Assembly: GCF_964204645.1 (NCBI RefSeq)
Contig: NC_134026.1
Location: 23,888,650-23,952,649, forward strand
Length of the DNA stretch: 64,000 nucleotides
Source: Tubulanus polymorphus
Lineage: Eukaryota; Nemertea; Palaeonemertea; Tubulaniformes; Tubulanidae
Direction of reading: 5' to 3'
In this document: positions 32,737 through 51,671 of the stretch, piece by piece
Numbering within the stretch: position 1 is the stretch's first letter
Layout: every line of letters begins with the position of its first letter
Notes under the pieces: generated by a model
Told to the model about the DNA's origin: nothing
The model's database searches: none
The model's input: the letters and a program-made list of their open reading frames with translations, nothing else
Made by a program: the position numbers and the translations under genes

Positions 32737-37662
<4,926 letters not shown>

Positions 37663-40288
37663 TCTACGCGATGAATATTACACTGTAATGATTTAATTCA
37701 AGCCCCAATTTCACTTAAATTGTTCAACTATTACGGGAACTGCGCGTGTGAACAGCGACATCTAACATCAGGAACGGCTGTAAGATTTTCACCGGAACGA
37801 CGATACCGTAGAAACTCAATCACAGTATTTCAGCACAATTTTGCTCCAAAATTAAAGACTATATGTTGATAAGATATTTCTAACATTCCGACATTTTGAC
37901 TGACAAGCATTTTTTTAGGTGTTTATGAAATTTAGGAGACAAGCCGCGACTATTTTTATTATTGGCAAGTGAGTGTACATTTTCGGTATTGAACAGGGAT
38001 TTCCTTTAATATCAAGGTCGAGGCAACTGTCAAACTTTTTTCTTCATTGTGAATCATTTTTTTGATGGAATTTGGAGGTTTGGCTCTGTTTCTCATGCTT
38101 TCAAACACTGAATCGTTGTTGAACTAGTAGCTGGAATTAAGGATTTATTGGATTGTTTGTGATAGTAGATGCTCACATACTTTTAGGTAAGACTGAAAAT
38201 GATAGAAAATCAATTTAACCGAGTTAATATTGCTTGCTGGAATTTTTTTGATCTTCAAGATCAAAAGAATTCCAGCAAGATCATCTTGTAACCAAAGAGG
38301 ACCGATGGATATGATACCTGCGTGATTATATTCTGTAAGTGACTAGGTTGTGGACAAAGTTTCATGTTATTCTTTTTACCCAGTCCTGAAGAAAGTGACT
38401 GTTTCGCGGCACTCCGTATGCTGACACTTGACTGACAGCTTGCGTTCCTCGGGGTCGCAATGAAGCGACACCACTGGCACTAAGGACAGTTCTCAGTGAA
38501 ATAAATCTCAGCTAATTTCAGCTATAATTGAAAAGTCTAGTCAGTGAATAGGATTTGAGAAATGTTTCTGAAGGCCTGCCTACTAGTAGTATCTAGTTAT
38601 GGGAACCCATACATTGTCTGGTACAGTTTGAGGCCAGTACAGCCTGAAAGTGTTGTGCTGTTATGTCTACCAACAAGGCTATATAGTTTATTTAGACAGA
38701 GTGACAGAAATCTTTTCAAACAACTTATAATAATCAGTAGTATAATCATTTTGTGCTCCAAAAACTTTTGGAATTTCTGAGGGAATAGATTTAAATCTGA
38801 ATCTGAACCAGTGTTAATTTGCTCTTAAATTTGTTCTTATTTTTGATTAATAAGTTTTTTTGTTAGCAATATTTTCAAATCAGATCAGTAGGCCAGTACC
38901 TCAAATAGGGTTAGGCCTAAGTTACCGTACACTTTACAGCACTGGGTATGTTAGTTCTGGTTGTATATCTAGGCTATAGTTTCTGTACAATAAATCAAAT
39001 ATTTTTCAATGATTAGTTTAGCATGCATTGAATGAATCACTCAGACTGACTTGCTGACTACAGATGATGATTATTCATTTTCCAGAGTTTATCAGAGCTA
39101 TTTGTGAATTCTTTAGGCCTACTATCTGCGGTATTCACATCTCAAAGAAACTTTCTACAGGCTGGCTCGATATCAAAAACGCAAATTTTTCCTTTGTTTT
39201 CGATATTATGTTGTTTTATGGATGGTTTTTCTACTTATGATCCTAAAAAACAAATGAATTACGTGTTTAGTTATAGAAATTATGAACACTGTCCCGACCT
39301 AACAATCTCAATAAAGAAGGTTAATGCTTCAATTAGCCAATTATAATAAGCATATCACTATAGGGTACCGGTAGTTTATTCATTGACCTAGTAATAATTT
39401 TCCTCACATATTCTTTCAAAGGAATAAATAGTATATATACACTCGAATTATGGTGGTATACAAACTTCTTTTAAGTCAAGACATCTCTTTAAGTGAAAGA
39501 CTTTGATCTTCCCAATCATGCCTGGTTACTGGCGTAGGCTTAGGTCTATTTATTTCTGAATTTTCTCTTGTCAGCACAATAATAGATCTGAGCGCAAGGC
39601 CTGTTAGATTGGGCGTGCCCAAAAACTTTGTCTATGATGATCAAACAAATACTTAAACTCTAAAATGAAATGGTGAAAGTATTATTGACCCAATATTCCC
39701 ACTCAAATATTCTGATGTGTTGAGTAATGTGAACTGTGTATACAAGCAACTTTTGCTACCTGTATGCGTTTAATACATTCACATAGCGCCGGAAGAGTTC
39801 CAGACTATCCTGTGCTGGTGGTTTGTATATTGCTGTGTGTAACTTCACTCATGCATTTTCTTGGATAGAATGAGAAAGTTGTTTTTGCGAAGCAGCTAAC
39901 AGTTAGTTTCATCATAGAGGTTGCTTTTATCTGACACTGAACATTCCGTGTGTGAATACCTTGTAGGTAAGAATTTACATTGATTTTTGGAAACCACTCA
40001 GGGCTAGTATGTTATCCCTATGTATTTAGGCAATAGTAGTTTCTGAAAGTATTCTAGATTCAGGAATGGATTTAGTTCAATGAGGTTTTGTGACTGACTT
40101 TGGCTTTGTGAAAAACATGTGGAGGAAATTATCTATCTGTAAGATGATGAATATTTGATTAGATATTCCAATAGTGACGAAATAGGACTGAGGAATTTAA
40201 CTACAAACCCTATTCCCTTTTTGGTTCTTATATGAGTGGGAATTGTTGAAGAATTTTTAGAATGGTTTGAATTATTTTTTTAGGTGGC
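37663..40288. other. Divergent spacer between DDX43-like and FRRS1-like A
   Basis: This holds the DDX43-like promoter (its left end, with CpGs near 37,730-37,810) and the upstream region of FRRS1-like A. An AG|GTAAGA donor at 39,966 is a likely end of a 5' UTR exon spliced to the acceptor at 40,282. A near-perfect hairpin lies at 38,234-38,278. Short open frames at 38,562-38,780 and 39,104-39,346 have no recognisable content. Confidence 0.5.
38234..38278. repeat. Near-perfect short hairpin
   Basis: TTGCTGGAATT...TTTTGATCTT is followed at once by AAGATCAAAA...GAATTCCAGCAA, giving a stem of about 20 bp with almost no loop. It may be a microRNA-sized stem or the relic of a palindromic element. 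The loop is too short for a canonical miRNA precursor. Confidence 0.6.
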
Positions 40289-45150: not shown

Positions 45151-46060
45151 GAAACATACAGAATTTGCACTGTACATCATCTACAAAGGTATACAAGGGT
45201 TGTTATAACAAAATAACACCTCAGTTGGAAATAGCACATTTCACTGACAATGAATTGGAATAAAAGCCAAATGATGGAGATGCTACATGTACTAATAATA
45301 TACAATAAATAAAACTCATCTATGTTACATCAAATATATTCTGTGTTTCTAAGAAATTTGTGTTCAAGCTGTTGCATATATATCTTTTTCATTTCTACAC
45401 TAAGATATAATTATTTTAAGGCTTAAGGCATGTAATAAGTAAAACTACTTCATAGAATGGAAAATAATTTCTGTTGAACAGCCCAGTAAACTTCAAGTAG
45501 AGTAGATTATGCAGAACTTTTCCTGAACAAGTAAAAAACATAAGCTGAAGAATGTACTAAATTGTTCCAACTTAAAGAATGCAGAGATCAATTACTGATA
45601 ATATTGACATCAATTTAGACACTGGTAAACGGATATCCGCTTGTCTCACCCTTACAAGAAAAAGCACCTTATGTAGAAAGATGTTATATTCTTTTTTGAC
45701 ACACATGTACATATTGCAAGTATTTATTAAATCATTGGGCATTGGAAATGCTCTATTCTGTATGAAAATAAACATCCTATATTGCTGAGATGAACGCCAC
45801 AATTTACCAACATTATTCTAATCCATATGTACATATAAAAACCATGAGACAATGCGTGTAGTAAGTCTTGCAATTCTCCATTAGGGCCATGCATATTCAT
45901 GGAAACATTAACCCAATAATTCTTAATACCGGTTCATATTTTCACACGTTCTACTGTTTTTTTACTGCTGCTGAGATGATGCCGACAATATTTACAGTAT
46001 CTTGTTGCTTACTGAAGAGGAGAGAATGGAGTTGGAATCAGGATACGCGATTCTAAAGTC

Positions 46061-48833
46061 CTAATCAATGGAACTGAAATGCAAGAAACAATCGAAAATT
46101 AATGAAAACTTCTGTGTCATTTTTTTATCCAGCAAGGGGATCATCCAATTACCAGTGTAAGCAACACATTCATCCCATCCAGGTTTTTGCCAAGCAGACT
46201 CCCTCAATTCTTTCCGTGTCTGTAGATTCTTGTAAGCTATAAGATAAATTCATTTACATCATCAACACAAAAATAGACTTCCGAGTATTTAGTAAAGAAA
46301 ATTATAATTTAAGTATTAACCCCAAATGTGATGGACAGTATACAGTTCTCCCATGTTTGAAAAGAAGCCTCCAACCGGGGTTTCTAGTTGTTTCCTGGTG
46401 ATCAGACCACGGGCCCTGAAACAAAAAATCAAAATTCCATGCAATCAGTATGAGTGATACTGAAAATTCAATTTGACAAAAAATATTGCGTAATTTTACC
46501 AGTTATTTCCCCATTCTATCATAGTACCGGGCTGAAAGATAAAAGAAAGCAATTCAGAAAATATACAAAACTCATGGCCTGGCCAAACTCATTTGTTTTA
46601 AGATTAATACCAAACATTTTTCAGTGGAATATATTCACCTTTAATGTATAAGTTCTCAGTTCATAGATATTCTTCTCTTGTGTAGGTTTCTCAAATGGCC
46701 AAAAACTGAAGCTCAGAAGAATCTGATTGCTGCGCGAATTTATCATCTTATTACGGTTTTTGCGAAATTGAACAAAATCCTGCAAAAAACATGCAGTCAT
46801 ATGTGTGAGGACTAGACAAATTGGAATGACATAAAAGATCCATCTTCTTTTATTTAAGAGAGAACCTTAATATCATCAACTATTCGCCATTCTTTACCTT
46901 ATCAGTTCTATAAGTTTCCACAGCAGTATTCAGAGTAGGGTATCCGCCATCATATCTCCATATGTGAACTAAGAAAAAAAAACCAGAAGTTCTATACAAC
47001 CATTCAGTGCATCAACATTAATAAGACTGTTTTTAACATTTTCACTTTTTTGTTTTTTTAGCAGTTTATTTTCAGTAATAAGACAAGCGATTTCCAAATA
47101 AAATATAGAGAATTAAAATCAGCAAGGGAATATAGGTGATAGTCATTATGTGATAAGTGTAACATAGTCAGAACAAATACTGCGGATGAGTTATAAGCTC
47201 CATGAACATGCAATAATACCCACCAGTGGTGTAAGTGGTGGTGCATCGATTCATTAAATAAATTGTAACCTGATGATTACAAATCTAGATTACAGAGACA
47301 TTTATGATAACGATAACCACATTTATCTAAAAAATTTAGCAAAATTACCCAACATAGGACCTGTCATTATTTGAGTTTTTTTTTTAAGCTTAAAAAACCA
47401 TGACAACCCAACAACAATGGCTGAAGCAAATAAGATATGCTTTTTCAACCATTCTCATACTAACTGGCCTTATCTTGGTCCCCTATATCCACTGTAAAAC
47501 TGCCTGCCAATTCGGCACCAGGGGTTTTATGTTGGACAAGTTCAACAAATTTGGCACTGAAAAATATAAGCTCTAATTGTGAAAGACAAAATGCATACAA
47601 CGCATAGAAGGTTCTGTTCCATGGATTAAGAAGTTGAATGTTTTGAAGCAGAATTATTTTTGCCATAAAACATAGAATTTATTGGCGCATATCATCATTC
47701 CATCTATGCTTTTATCCATATCATATATGCCTCATATATACATAACACATGATGGCCATATGTGAAACGATACAATGGAACCTCGTGATTACAAACCCTG
47801 AGGACAAGAGGGTGTCACAAAAAACTGAAATCTAATCACCAATTTAGTATCTATCAGTACGATGAAAATACTAAAATTTCTGTTACATTAAATATAATGA
47901 GGTTTCACTGTATTGTTATGATATACATGTATAAATATGTTAAGACATCATAATTCACATCAGAGTTTTTTCCAGCTTAACTTCAGGACTATCAGTACGC
48001 AAAAGTCCACGAAACTAATTTTGACTCAGTCATCACAGTAGAACTGGATCGTAAACGAACAAACACTACTGATGTGAATCAAGTGACTTTAACTTCACTG
48101 GCTGGGTATTGAATGAGAGAAAACTTCTTGGATTTAAGCCGAACTAACACCTAAATACATCGGCCAAAGTGCAAATATATCTAACACAAGCGATACAATA
48201 CAATATCTAGTATCATGACAACAAGCAGAGATCGAAATATCAACTAATCATTTTCAAGTACCAGCTTCATCTTGTTTGCCAATACTGACAGTGAAGCTAC
48301 CCAACAACTCTGCACCAGTCCTTTTCTCTTGTACTAAATTATGAAAGTTTTGACTGAAAAGGAAGGTATAATGATAGTAGCTGGTATAATCAAACAATTC
48401 ATAAATGAACAATTCTCAAAATTCCTACTTTTCAATTGTAAATTCTTTGCAAAGAACAAACTTAACTCACAATTCATTCAAGTATTCTTCCATGAACTCT
48501 GGTTTTACCGAATGAACTGAAAACAAAAGCAAACATAGAATACTAAAGTAGCCTACTTTTTATTTCTGCAAAAAATATAGTCAATGATAAATTGTGACAT
48601 GGCAAATAATACACACGCTACTTTATGCCCAAATACTTACACTGTATCTCGTAAACTGTATTTCTGTTTGACAGTAAACTTGATGCCGAATCTTTACCGG
48701 TTTGTACCGGCCGGACGCGAAAAGCTTTACGCAGCCAGCCACCGGTTTTTGGTTGATCATTGCATAACACAACCGAAGAAGAAAATCCCCTGGAATTGAA
48801 TAAACTCTCAATATAGGACCATACAAATTGCAA
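46061..48833 (-). CDS. NIPSNAP: NIPSNAP family mitochondrial protein
   Basis: Minus-strand model of eight exons: 48641-48833, 48471-48516, one of two alternative 92-nt exons (48262-48353 or 47465-47556), 46898-46968, 46639-46779, 46500-46531, 46321-46415, 46061-46236. With either alternative the frame closes at 281 aa, like vertebrate NIPSNAP1/2 (about 285). Family hallmarks: GGWLRKAF near the N-terminus, [76 protein letters not shown] and [12 protein letters not shown]. The N-terminus ([10 protein letters not shown]) suits a mitochondrial presequence. NIPSNAPs are mitochondrial matrix proteins implicated in mitophagy signalling. The last residues after VAYT differ from the usual VPLxRxMESxIMIP ending; reading through gives [12 protein letters not shown], and a further exon behind the GTAATT donor at that point was sought but not found. 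The start lies in a local CpG-rich promoter patch. Confidence 0.93.
47465..47556 (-). other. NIPSNAP alternative exon 3b
   Basis: A 92-nt exon encoding [20 protein letters not shown] then [10 protein letters not shown], flanked by a TTTTTCAG acceptor and a GTTAGT donor. It enters in phase 2 and leaves in phase 1, exactly like exon 3a, and aligns with it residue for residue without gaps. It completes the codon for Ile before HIWRY. Confidence 0.85.
47771..47912. repeat. TA-flanked MITE between the two alternative NIPSNAP exons
   Basis: The left end TACAATGGAACCTCGTGATT and the reverse complement of the right end TACAGTGAAACCTCATTATA form terminal inverted repeats beginning with TA. The ends share the TACARTNNAAC pattern with the elements at 28,057 and 33,086. 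Confidence 0.7.
48262..48353 (-). other. NIPSNAP alternative exon 3a
   Basis: A 92-nt exon encoding [20 protein letters not shown] then [10 protein letters not shown], with a CTTTTCAG acceptor and a GTACTT donor. Same length and phases as exon 3b, 705 nt downstream in the transcript direction. It completes the codon for Val before HIWRY, as in vertebrate NIPSNAP1/2 (AVHLW). Confidence 0.88.
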
Positions 48834-49200
48834 CTTGTTGAACTACATACGACTGAGTACTGAGAGGGAAAACGAGAGTCGAGAGGAATTTGAACAGACC
48901 CTAGCCTCTCGCTCGGCCTCGAAATCGAATGTCAATGCGTCTCTACCTGTTTACGATATTTTCACTGACTGCATTCTTTTGAAGAGTCGAAATTATACAG
49001 CGAAACTGGCGTATACTACCGTGGCGAAACATTTTCAATCTCTAATAGCGATGCGAAGAAAAATAACAGTTGTTTATAGCGAAATTTTGGTCGCTTTCAT
49101 CATGATTTTGACATTGAGAATAATAAATGACAGCGCCCTCTTGTGGTCATTTGATCGAACCGGTTGCCGAGGGGTCGAATCCCGTAAATCAGAAATTAAA
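48834..49200. promoter_or_regulatory. NIPSNAP promoter region, locally CpG-rich
   Basis: The spacer between the NIPSNAP start and the CFAP73/CCDC42 3' end has a visible CpG cluster (CTCGCTCGGCCTCGAAATCG at about 48,908) inside the otherwise CpG-poor block. This is what an unmethylated promoter would look like. No TATA box is evident. Confidence 0.4.
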
Positions 49201-49600: not shown

Positions 49601-51671
49601 TCATTGACTGGAAGATGCCCCAGCAGTTGATTGAGTTGCTGCTTCAGAACGCTTGATTTCTTGGGTTATTTGATTTAAATCTTGTATAAATATCTGTATC
49701 TGTAACGAAGAAAAAAAAACATCAATCAAGTCATTAGTAGGTTATCGCTCAGGGGCCGGTTGCTCAAAAGTTGGCTAGAGTTAACCAGTGGATAGTTGAT
49801 AGGGTGACAATTGAAATTTCATTGTTACTATAGTATTTAACGGCTGGTTATCTTTAACCAACTTTTGAGCAACTGGCCCCTGGTTAGTAGATCATCGAGG
49901 AAAATCATCAGAAGACATACCTTACTGAGCTGCTCAGCTGTTTCATCAACCTGTTCATCTGGTAATTGTTTTTGGTGTCTCAGTACCAGTTGGTATAAAT
50001 TATGAGTGGCCCTACAAGACAACCACACTTACGTAAATTATGCATATAATTTGAGCAGCAAATTATGAAAAAAGAAACCCACACCTACATTTTGATTCGG
50101 CCAAGTAATAATGTCTTTGTAGCTGCAGTATTCTTTATGTGAGTCCATTTCGACTCCCATTTAACAGCGTCGCTTTCAGATTTATCAAGTCTTGTTTGTA
50201 ATCCTGCCAGTTGATTATTGTATCCCAATATCTCATTATTCTTATCCTTTGAGAATAAAGGAGGAAATAAAAACACAAACAAGTACAATGCCACGAAATT
50301 CTATTAATGTTCGTGAAAACTTGATAATAAATGATCATACCTCAGTGTATTTCATTAGTTTCTGTTTTTCTAATTCAACAGCCTCTTGGTTCTTTTGTTC
50401 TCTTTCCATCAAATCCTAGAAAATCCTATCTTAGTTCAAAAAACTACTGAACAGCACACAAAGTGAATTGAAAAAACAGTAAACTTCGCCTCACTTACTG
50501 GGCGAAATTGGTCAGAGTTAAGAAAAATTCTGATTTAAAGATCAGGGGCCAGTTGCACAGTCGTGACTTAAGTCCAAAAGTGGTCTTAAATCTTAAGATT
50601 GGTCTTAAGTTGTTAGATTGGCTATAGAACTGAGTTGGTCTTAGACTGGTCTTAAGTCTAAGTCATGACTATGCAACTGGCTCCAGGTAAGATAAGTTGA
50701 GGAGTCAGAAAATGACTTTCTTTTTGTCCATGTTTATCAAAAGTCTGAGTTGGTCATGCCTGAGTAAGGCAAGGATTACTGTATAGTATAGTACAAATAT
50801 GACTTACATAATAAGTAGCAGTCAGTGTGTCATATCGAGCAATTACTTCTCGTATCTCATGAAACTCTTCTGCAGTTTCGAGAACTTTATCTAAATATTT
50901 CTGGCAGACAACATGCTTCTCCAATTTATTTTGAAGATGATCTTTATCAGCAGAAAATAGACCAATCTCATCTCGCAGTCTGGAATCATGAAATTTTTAT
51001 AGAAATATCATAATCAGTCTAACAGGTAATTGTTGATAAAGTTTTTAATCCTGAAAAGCCGACCTGTCAATTTCCTTGTCCTTTGATCTTTTCAGATCGC
51101 GTTCATCTTGTGCCTTCTTCACTGCTCTGGCTCTTTTTGAATCGTTTTCCTGTAAAGGTTTTTACCTTTAAGACACCGAACATCTCAAAACAATCGAGTA
51201 AGATCTGGACAGTTGATTCATTTGAGAACTTACCTTCAAAAATTTATCGAATTTGAGTAAAGATTCCTTTAGCTGAAACTCTTTTCTCTCCAACTCTTCC
51301 CGACGTTGTTGTAAACTTTCCATTTTCATTTGAAACTCCTAAAATCAAAAGGCTCCTCATGAATTCCTTAGCAAATAAGATGACAAATAAGATTATTCAG
51401 ATTGACAGCATCATATACTTCTTTTTGTGCAGCTAATGCCTGTTCAACTTCAGCCATTTCCCTTCGTTTTTCCAGCAATCTTGTCGCTGGTGTCAAGTGA
51501 TCATCCTCTCTTTCAGGCATTTTTCTTGAAAAAAAATAGGGACACAGATTGATAATTTCATCGCAAAGTATACAAAGTTATCACTTTTTAACCAAATTAC
51601 GGTGATAATACTTACACAAGGAGCTTATCCTCGAATGTAGTTCGGAAATACTCTTCTAAACTAACAGCCAT
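49601..51671 (-). CDS. CFAP73: CFAP73/CCDC42 family ciliary coiled-coil protein
   Basis: Nine exons close in frame to 315 aa: 51616-51671, 51419-51524, 51234-51338, 51064-51149, 50808-50979, 50341-50415, 50089-50246, 49921-50011, 49601-49699. The length matches CCDC42 (316) and CFAP73 (308). The protein is coiled coil almost throughout. Conserved family strings: EEYFRTTFEDKLL at the start, LLEKRREM, KFLKENDSKRARAVKKA, EFHEIREVIARYDTLT, EILGYNNQLAGLQTRLD, and the signature WESKWTHIKNTAATKTLLLG then RIKMATHNLY. CFAP73 (MIA2 in Chlamydomonas) works with CFAP100 in the modifier-of-inner-arms complex at the base of axonemal inner dynein arms; CCDC42 is the testis paralogue. I cannot decide between the two from memory. 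Head-to-head with TEKT2 across 1,137 nt. Two MITEs sit in its introns. Confidence 0.94.
49750..49882. repeat. MITE in CFAP73/CCDC42 intron 8
   Basis: CAGGGGCCGGTTGCTCAAAA at the left and its near-perfect reverse complement TTTTGAGCAACTGGCCCCTG at the right give about 30-bp inverted repeats, extended by AGTTGG / CCAACT. The interior GTTAACCAGTGGATAGTTGA is shared with the decayed copy at 1,592-1,716. Imperfect 8-nt direct repeats (GTTATCGC / GTTAGTAG) flank it. Confidence 0.85.
50544..50685. repeat. MITE in CFAP73/CCDC42 intron 5
   Basis: CAGGGGCCAGTTGCACAGTC at the left pairs with GACTATGCAACTGGCTCCAG at the right, followed inward by GTGACTTAAG / CTAAGTCATG. The interior repeats the CTTAAG motif several times (TCTTAAATCTTAAGATTGGT). 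The CAGGGGCC ends are shared with the element at 49,750, but the interiors differ. Confidence 0.85.

Follow-up and report, generated by a model that had tools for sequence, protein, structure and literature searches.

A tandem-duplicated exon 4, predicted to be spliced in a mutually exclusive manner, in a NIPSNAP1/2-type gene of the nemertean Tubulanus polymorphus

Why does a NIPSNAP gene of Tubulanus polymorphus carry one of its coding exons twice, and how might both copies be used in its transcripts? NIPSNAP proteins act in mitochondrial quality control (mitophagy), and the gene in question lies in a 64,000-nt stretch of contig C2 (hereafter, the window) of a 267.8-Mb assembly. The original prediction held that the two copies are mutually exclusive exons. 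On the basis of the genomic sequence, mutually exclusive splicing of an anciently tandem-duplicated exon 4, with one copy placed between exons 3 and 5, is very probably the correct reading, and the animal probably makes two NIPSNAP forms.

The minus strand of the window harbors a complete NIPSNAP1/2-type gene (46,009-49,032; ATG at 49,032, stop at 46,009) with 10 exons per transcript and GT-AG borders at every intron (Table 1). The gene is presumably orthologous to NIPSNAP1/2 and not to NIPSNAP3. The composition of the exon 1 product predicts that it starts with a mitochondrial presequence. Exon 4 is present twice (4A and 4B). Neither copy contains a stop codon, as had been claimed, and the 4A and 4B isoforms are both open from ATG to stop, with 286 aa each.

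Table 1. Exons of the NIPSNAP gene and the intron between the alternative exons (window positions)
Feature	Position	Strand	Remarks
Exon 1	48947..49032	-	start codon and predicted mitochondrial presequence MFRHGSIRQFRCIISTLQK...; frame and GT donor
Exon 2	48641..48789	-	
Exon 3	48471..48516	-	46 nt; common upstream exon; phase 2 at end
Alternative exon 4A	48262..48353	-	92 nt; 32 residues including junction codons
4A-4B intron	47557..48261	-	705 nt
Alternative exon 4B	47465..47556	-	92 nt; 32 residues including junction codons
Exon 5	46898..46968	-	71 nt; common downstream exon; HIWRYDGGY at start
Exon 6	46639..46779	-	
Exon 7	46500..46531	-	32 nt
Exon 8	46321..46415	-	
Exon 9	46153..46236	-	
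Exon 10	46009..46073	-	includes stop codon

The two copies are identical in phase, each carrying in two nucleotides of a codon and carrying out one, and both have GT-AG borders; re-examination confirmed their coordinates, AG/GT borders, peptides, and common length as originally described. Joined between exons 3 and 5, either copy is open in one common frame, and the codon over the 3′ junction is GTT with 4A and ATT with 4B, yielding the anticipated exchange of Val for Ile. The claim that inclusion of both copies or of neither breaks the frame is upheld by translation: double inclusion leads to a stop within 4B (...VLQWI-stop), and skipping leads to a stop a few codons into exon 5 (...SHMEI-stop), both well 5′ of several later exon junctions. 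A non-productive transcript when both or neither are used is thus predicted here, a feature that is not obligatory for every exclusive pair. The copies also display the other hallmarks of mutually exclusive homologous exons, being neighbors of similar length that are homologous, share a frame, and have compatible splice sites.

The similarity between 4A and 4B is far above chance. Including the junction codons, 20 of the 32 residues are identical, and the ungapped BLOSUM62 score is 95 versus a maximum of 37 in 20,000 shuffles. If the 36 substitutions separating the exons are placed randomly, identical residues average 10.7 and never exceed 17 (observed, 20); a stop appears in 69% of these randomized copies and is absent from 31%. 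The differences fall on codon positions 1/2/3 in the proportion 11/5/20, corresponding to 15 synonymous changes at 20 synonymous sites (pS 0.75) and 21 non-synonymous changes at 76 sites (pN 0.28). The resulting pN/pS is 0.37, in which pS is saturated and which, as a pairwise value, cannot by itself apportion constraint between the two exons.

Identical codons are used at 8 of the 20 conserved residues versus 9.0 expected under independent codon choice, from which it follows that synonymous sites are saturated and that the pair is old. Homology was also sought between the intron flanks of 4A and 4B, and nothing beyond chance was found. Saturation together with non-homologous flanks indicates an old duplication, and the pair has been under a common protein constraint (i.e., purifying selection) ever since. 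A recent duplication or an assembly artefact is ruled out by the same two features. Open frame, phase, length, splice borders, and domain match argue that neither copy is free of constraint. Both exons would also be expected to stay conserved if one of them served just in a rare context. The earlier impression that neither exon looks decayed is consistent with the retained frame, phase, and length and with a protein that is conserved despite saturated synonymous sites.

Further copies were sought at three levels. Between 43,000 and 52,000, the best other match to exon 4 scores 18 and contains stops, compared with 80-148 for 4A/4B. No retrocopy recording a spliced form was found in the genome, where exon 3-4B-5-6 DNA and the protein match only exons of the gene itself, and no relatives were found in prokaryotic and viral collections.

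Both copies complete a NIPSNAP domain. The protein encoded by exons 3-10 matches PF07978 (curated cut-off, 22.3 bits) in two stretches, with 158.8 bits for the 4A form and 156.1 bits for the 4B form. For the N-terminal domain, the scores are 41.2 bits (4A) and 38.4 bits (4B), both above the cut-off, and its NIPSNAP match is lost when exon 4 is scrambled or omitted. The relatives of known structure (5kak, 1vqs, 2ap6, and 1vqy) are short chains of 112-126 residues with a single NIPSNAP-like domain. Alignment to the second NIPSNAP domain and to 5kak, with secondary structure inferred, would have the exon 4 segment run from where the first helix ends, through the next strand, to the turn that leads into the HIWRY strand.

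The core common to 4A and 4B comprises F, F, L-V-Q, G-A-E-L-x-G-S-F-T-V, I-G, and Q-D, while the variable positions are 2, 3, 5, 6, 10, 12, 13, 18, 24, 27, 30, and 32. Within the helical portion, F1, F4, L7, V8, and K11 are invariant, a pattern as would be expected for a kept buried face and a varying exposed face. Charge is altered at positions 24 (S/D), 27 (K/D), and 30 (E/K), the last two being the charge differences noted originally. Exchange of the exons may be viewed as a candidate means of retuning the first NIPSNAP domain at its surface while the core stays constant. By keeping the core and altering 12 positions of a 32-residue segment, the pair points to a portion of the first domain that may be open to functional tuning, and 4A/4B would represent a natural isoform pair ready for functional comparison. 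What the mutually exclusive reading predicts of the sequence was found throughout, i.e., length, phase, homology, open frames, purifying selection, frame break, and domain completion.

Both exons had also been credited with good splice sites, an assessment that holds for the acceptors (normal to good) and fails for the donors. All donors are of the U2-type GT. Among 17 donors scored in the NIPSNAP gene and the neighboring gene with a leave-one-out matrix, that of 4A (CTG/GTACTT) is the third-lowest and that of 4B (CCA/GTTAGT) the lowest. By U1 pairing energy, they are two of the three weakest (-4.1 and -3.6 kcal/mol, respectively); two named donors would both rank among the three lowest of 17 with a probability of 3/136 (~2%). 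Regulated exons often have weak donors.

Two weak donors, combined with premature stops from double inclusion and skipping, could also suit a gene in which only one copy is productive and the other is included mainly for double-inclusion transcripts, lowering expression via NMD. This is quite improbable; nothing obliges a poison exon to preserve the peptide it encodes, yet the change between the copies is biased toward synonymous sites, and the Pfam domain is completed by each. It is very improbable that the copies are served by different transcription starts (e.g., an internal promoter in the 4A-4B intron for 4B) instead of by splicing competition, as 4B, preceded by a consensus acceptor and entered in phase 2, needs a coding exon upstream, and exon 3 fits it exactly. 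That one copy is a decaying duplication relic, no longer spliced, would agree with the 4B donor being the weakest of those scored but is extremely improbable, given that the protein is conserved despite saturation at synonymous sites and that both copies are free of stops and keep phase and length.

Steric exclusion by a short intron does not apply, as the 4A-4B intron is too long. OGDH is nuclear, encodes a mitochondrial protein, and, like the NIPSNAP gene, has either-or exons (4a/4b), whose exclusivity is reported to be enforced through distant branch points (PMC7969005). In the window gene, the 4B acceptor is preceded by an AG at ~17-19 nt (TTAGAGCTTATATTTTTCAG), and an OGDH-like distant branch point is therefore unlikely. 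Ten combinations of intron-intron and exon-intron RNA pairing were all within the shuffle range (lowest fraction, 0.09). The intron-intron duplex energies, which bear on docking/selector control of the Dscam type, are among these, in a comparison within a single genome that would not show weak conserved pairings.

The introns after 4A (48214-48222) and 4B (47399-47407) have in common the 9-mer GTTGTCATG, located 40 and 58 nt into the respective introns and hence at a similar distance from the weak donors (P ~0.09 by shuffles). It is possibly a shared splicing element and is offered as just a lead. The RBFOX word TGCATG occurs once in the intron after 4B, which alone is not significant.

Taken as a sequence of events, exon 4 would have been duplicated in tandem long ago in a NIPSNAP1/2-type gene, and exactly one of 4A and 4B would now be joined between exons 3 and 5, with both expressed. 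Because their donors are weak, each exon may need activation in some cells. Transcripts with both copies or neither would be cleared by NMD. Of the models still standing, the simplest has one weak exon activated in a regulated manner, and the frame and NMD would clear mistakes.

Mutually exclusive exons that arose by tandem duplication are well documented as a class (PMC9741552, PMC3923563, PMC5740500). PMC9741552 reports 236 human events in 214 genes and 154 Drosophila genes, with ion channels, muscle proteins, and membrane proteins over-represented, and its main text does not name NIPSNAP. Like the pairs described there, 4A and 4B are homologous neighbors of the same length and frame, are ancient, differ by conservative substitutions, and exchange one protein region. 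Kassiopeia (PMC3923563), which covers Drosophila, Arabidopsis, and C. elegans and whose text is without NIPSNAP, relies on similar length, homology, compatible splice sites, and frame, all four of which characterize 4A/4B.

Human NIPSNAP1 and NIPSNAP2 have the same two-domain architecture as the window gene (family assigned by Pfam), and the literature searched describes no exon duplication in either. More generally, no such pair was found there under NIPSNAP mutually exclusive splicing, exon duplication, or isoforms, a search to which supplementary tables, subscription papers, and RefSeq isoform models are external. This agrees with the original remark that a described splice switch of this kind in NIPSNAP is not known, without proving novelty. 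The splicing class is already known, and NIPSNAP is provisionally new as a gene with such a pair; it would bring a mitochondrial member to a group made up largely of channels and muscle proteins. A broader proposal is that the switch is ancient and widespread in protostomes, providing them with two functional forms of the protein from a single gene, where splicing would do what vertebrates do by separate NIPSNAP1 and NIPSNAP2 genes; this is regarded as rather unlikely.

Besides the window gene, the genome has at least one other member of the NIPSNAP family, which is NIPSNAP3-like and is located on contig C3 (L001 1440-3168, C3:10,567,000 region). The exon of this paralogue is continuous through the HIWEY strand, with no intron at the 4/5 boundary, and its intron positions differ from those of the window gene. 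No duplicated exon was found in the stretch of the paralogue that was read.

Several other features of the window and genome were observed. An R/G/S-rich open frame on the minus strand (37231-37677) resembles the N-terminal region of a Vasa/DDX4-type helicase, and this exon alone gave no Pfam match. A complete coiled-coil gene (49603-51671, minus strand) is located head to tail with NIPSNAP; it presumably resembles CFAP73/CCDC42 (cilia) and is adjoined by a plus-strand tektin gene from 52,803 onward (Pfam Tektin). The genome also carries mir-2 clusters and mir-1; mir-2 is limited to protostomes, which identifies the genome as that of a protostome. No match to mitochondrial COX1 was found in the assembly.

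Intronic repeats were also observed. The first is a 129-nt palindromic element in an intron of the CFAP73/CCDC42-like gene (49752-49880; GGGGCCAGTTGCTCAAAAGTTGG...) whose arms are 77% complementary. Copies that are 95-97% identical are found on most large contigs (40 scored of 1791 first-look candidates), and the element looks like a MITE-type or foldback repeat of fairly recent spread. The second intronic element (50545-50684) has 26-nt terminal inverted repeats and an GGGGCCAGTTGC end in common with the 129-nt element, and it probably belongs to a related non-autonomous family.
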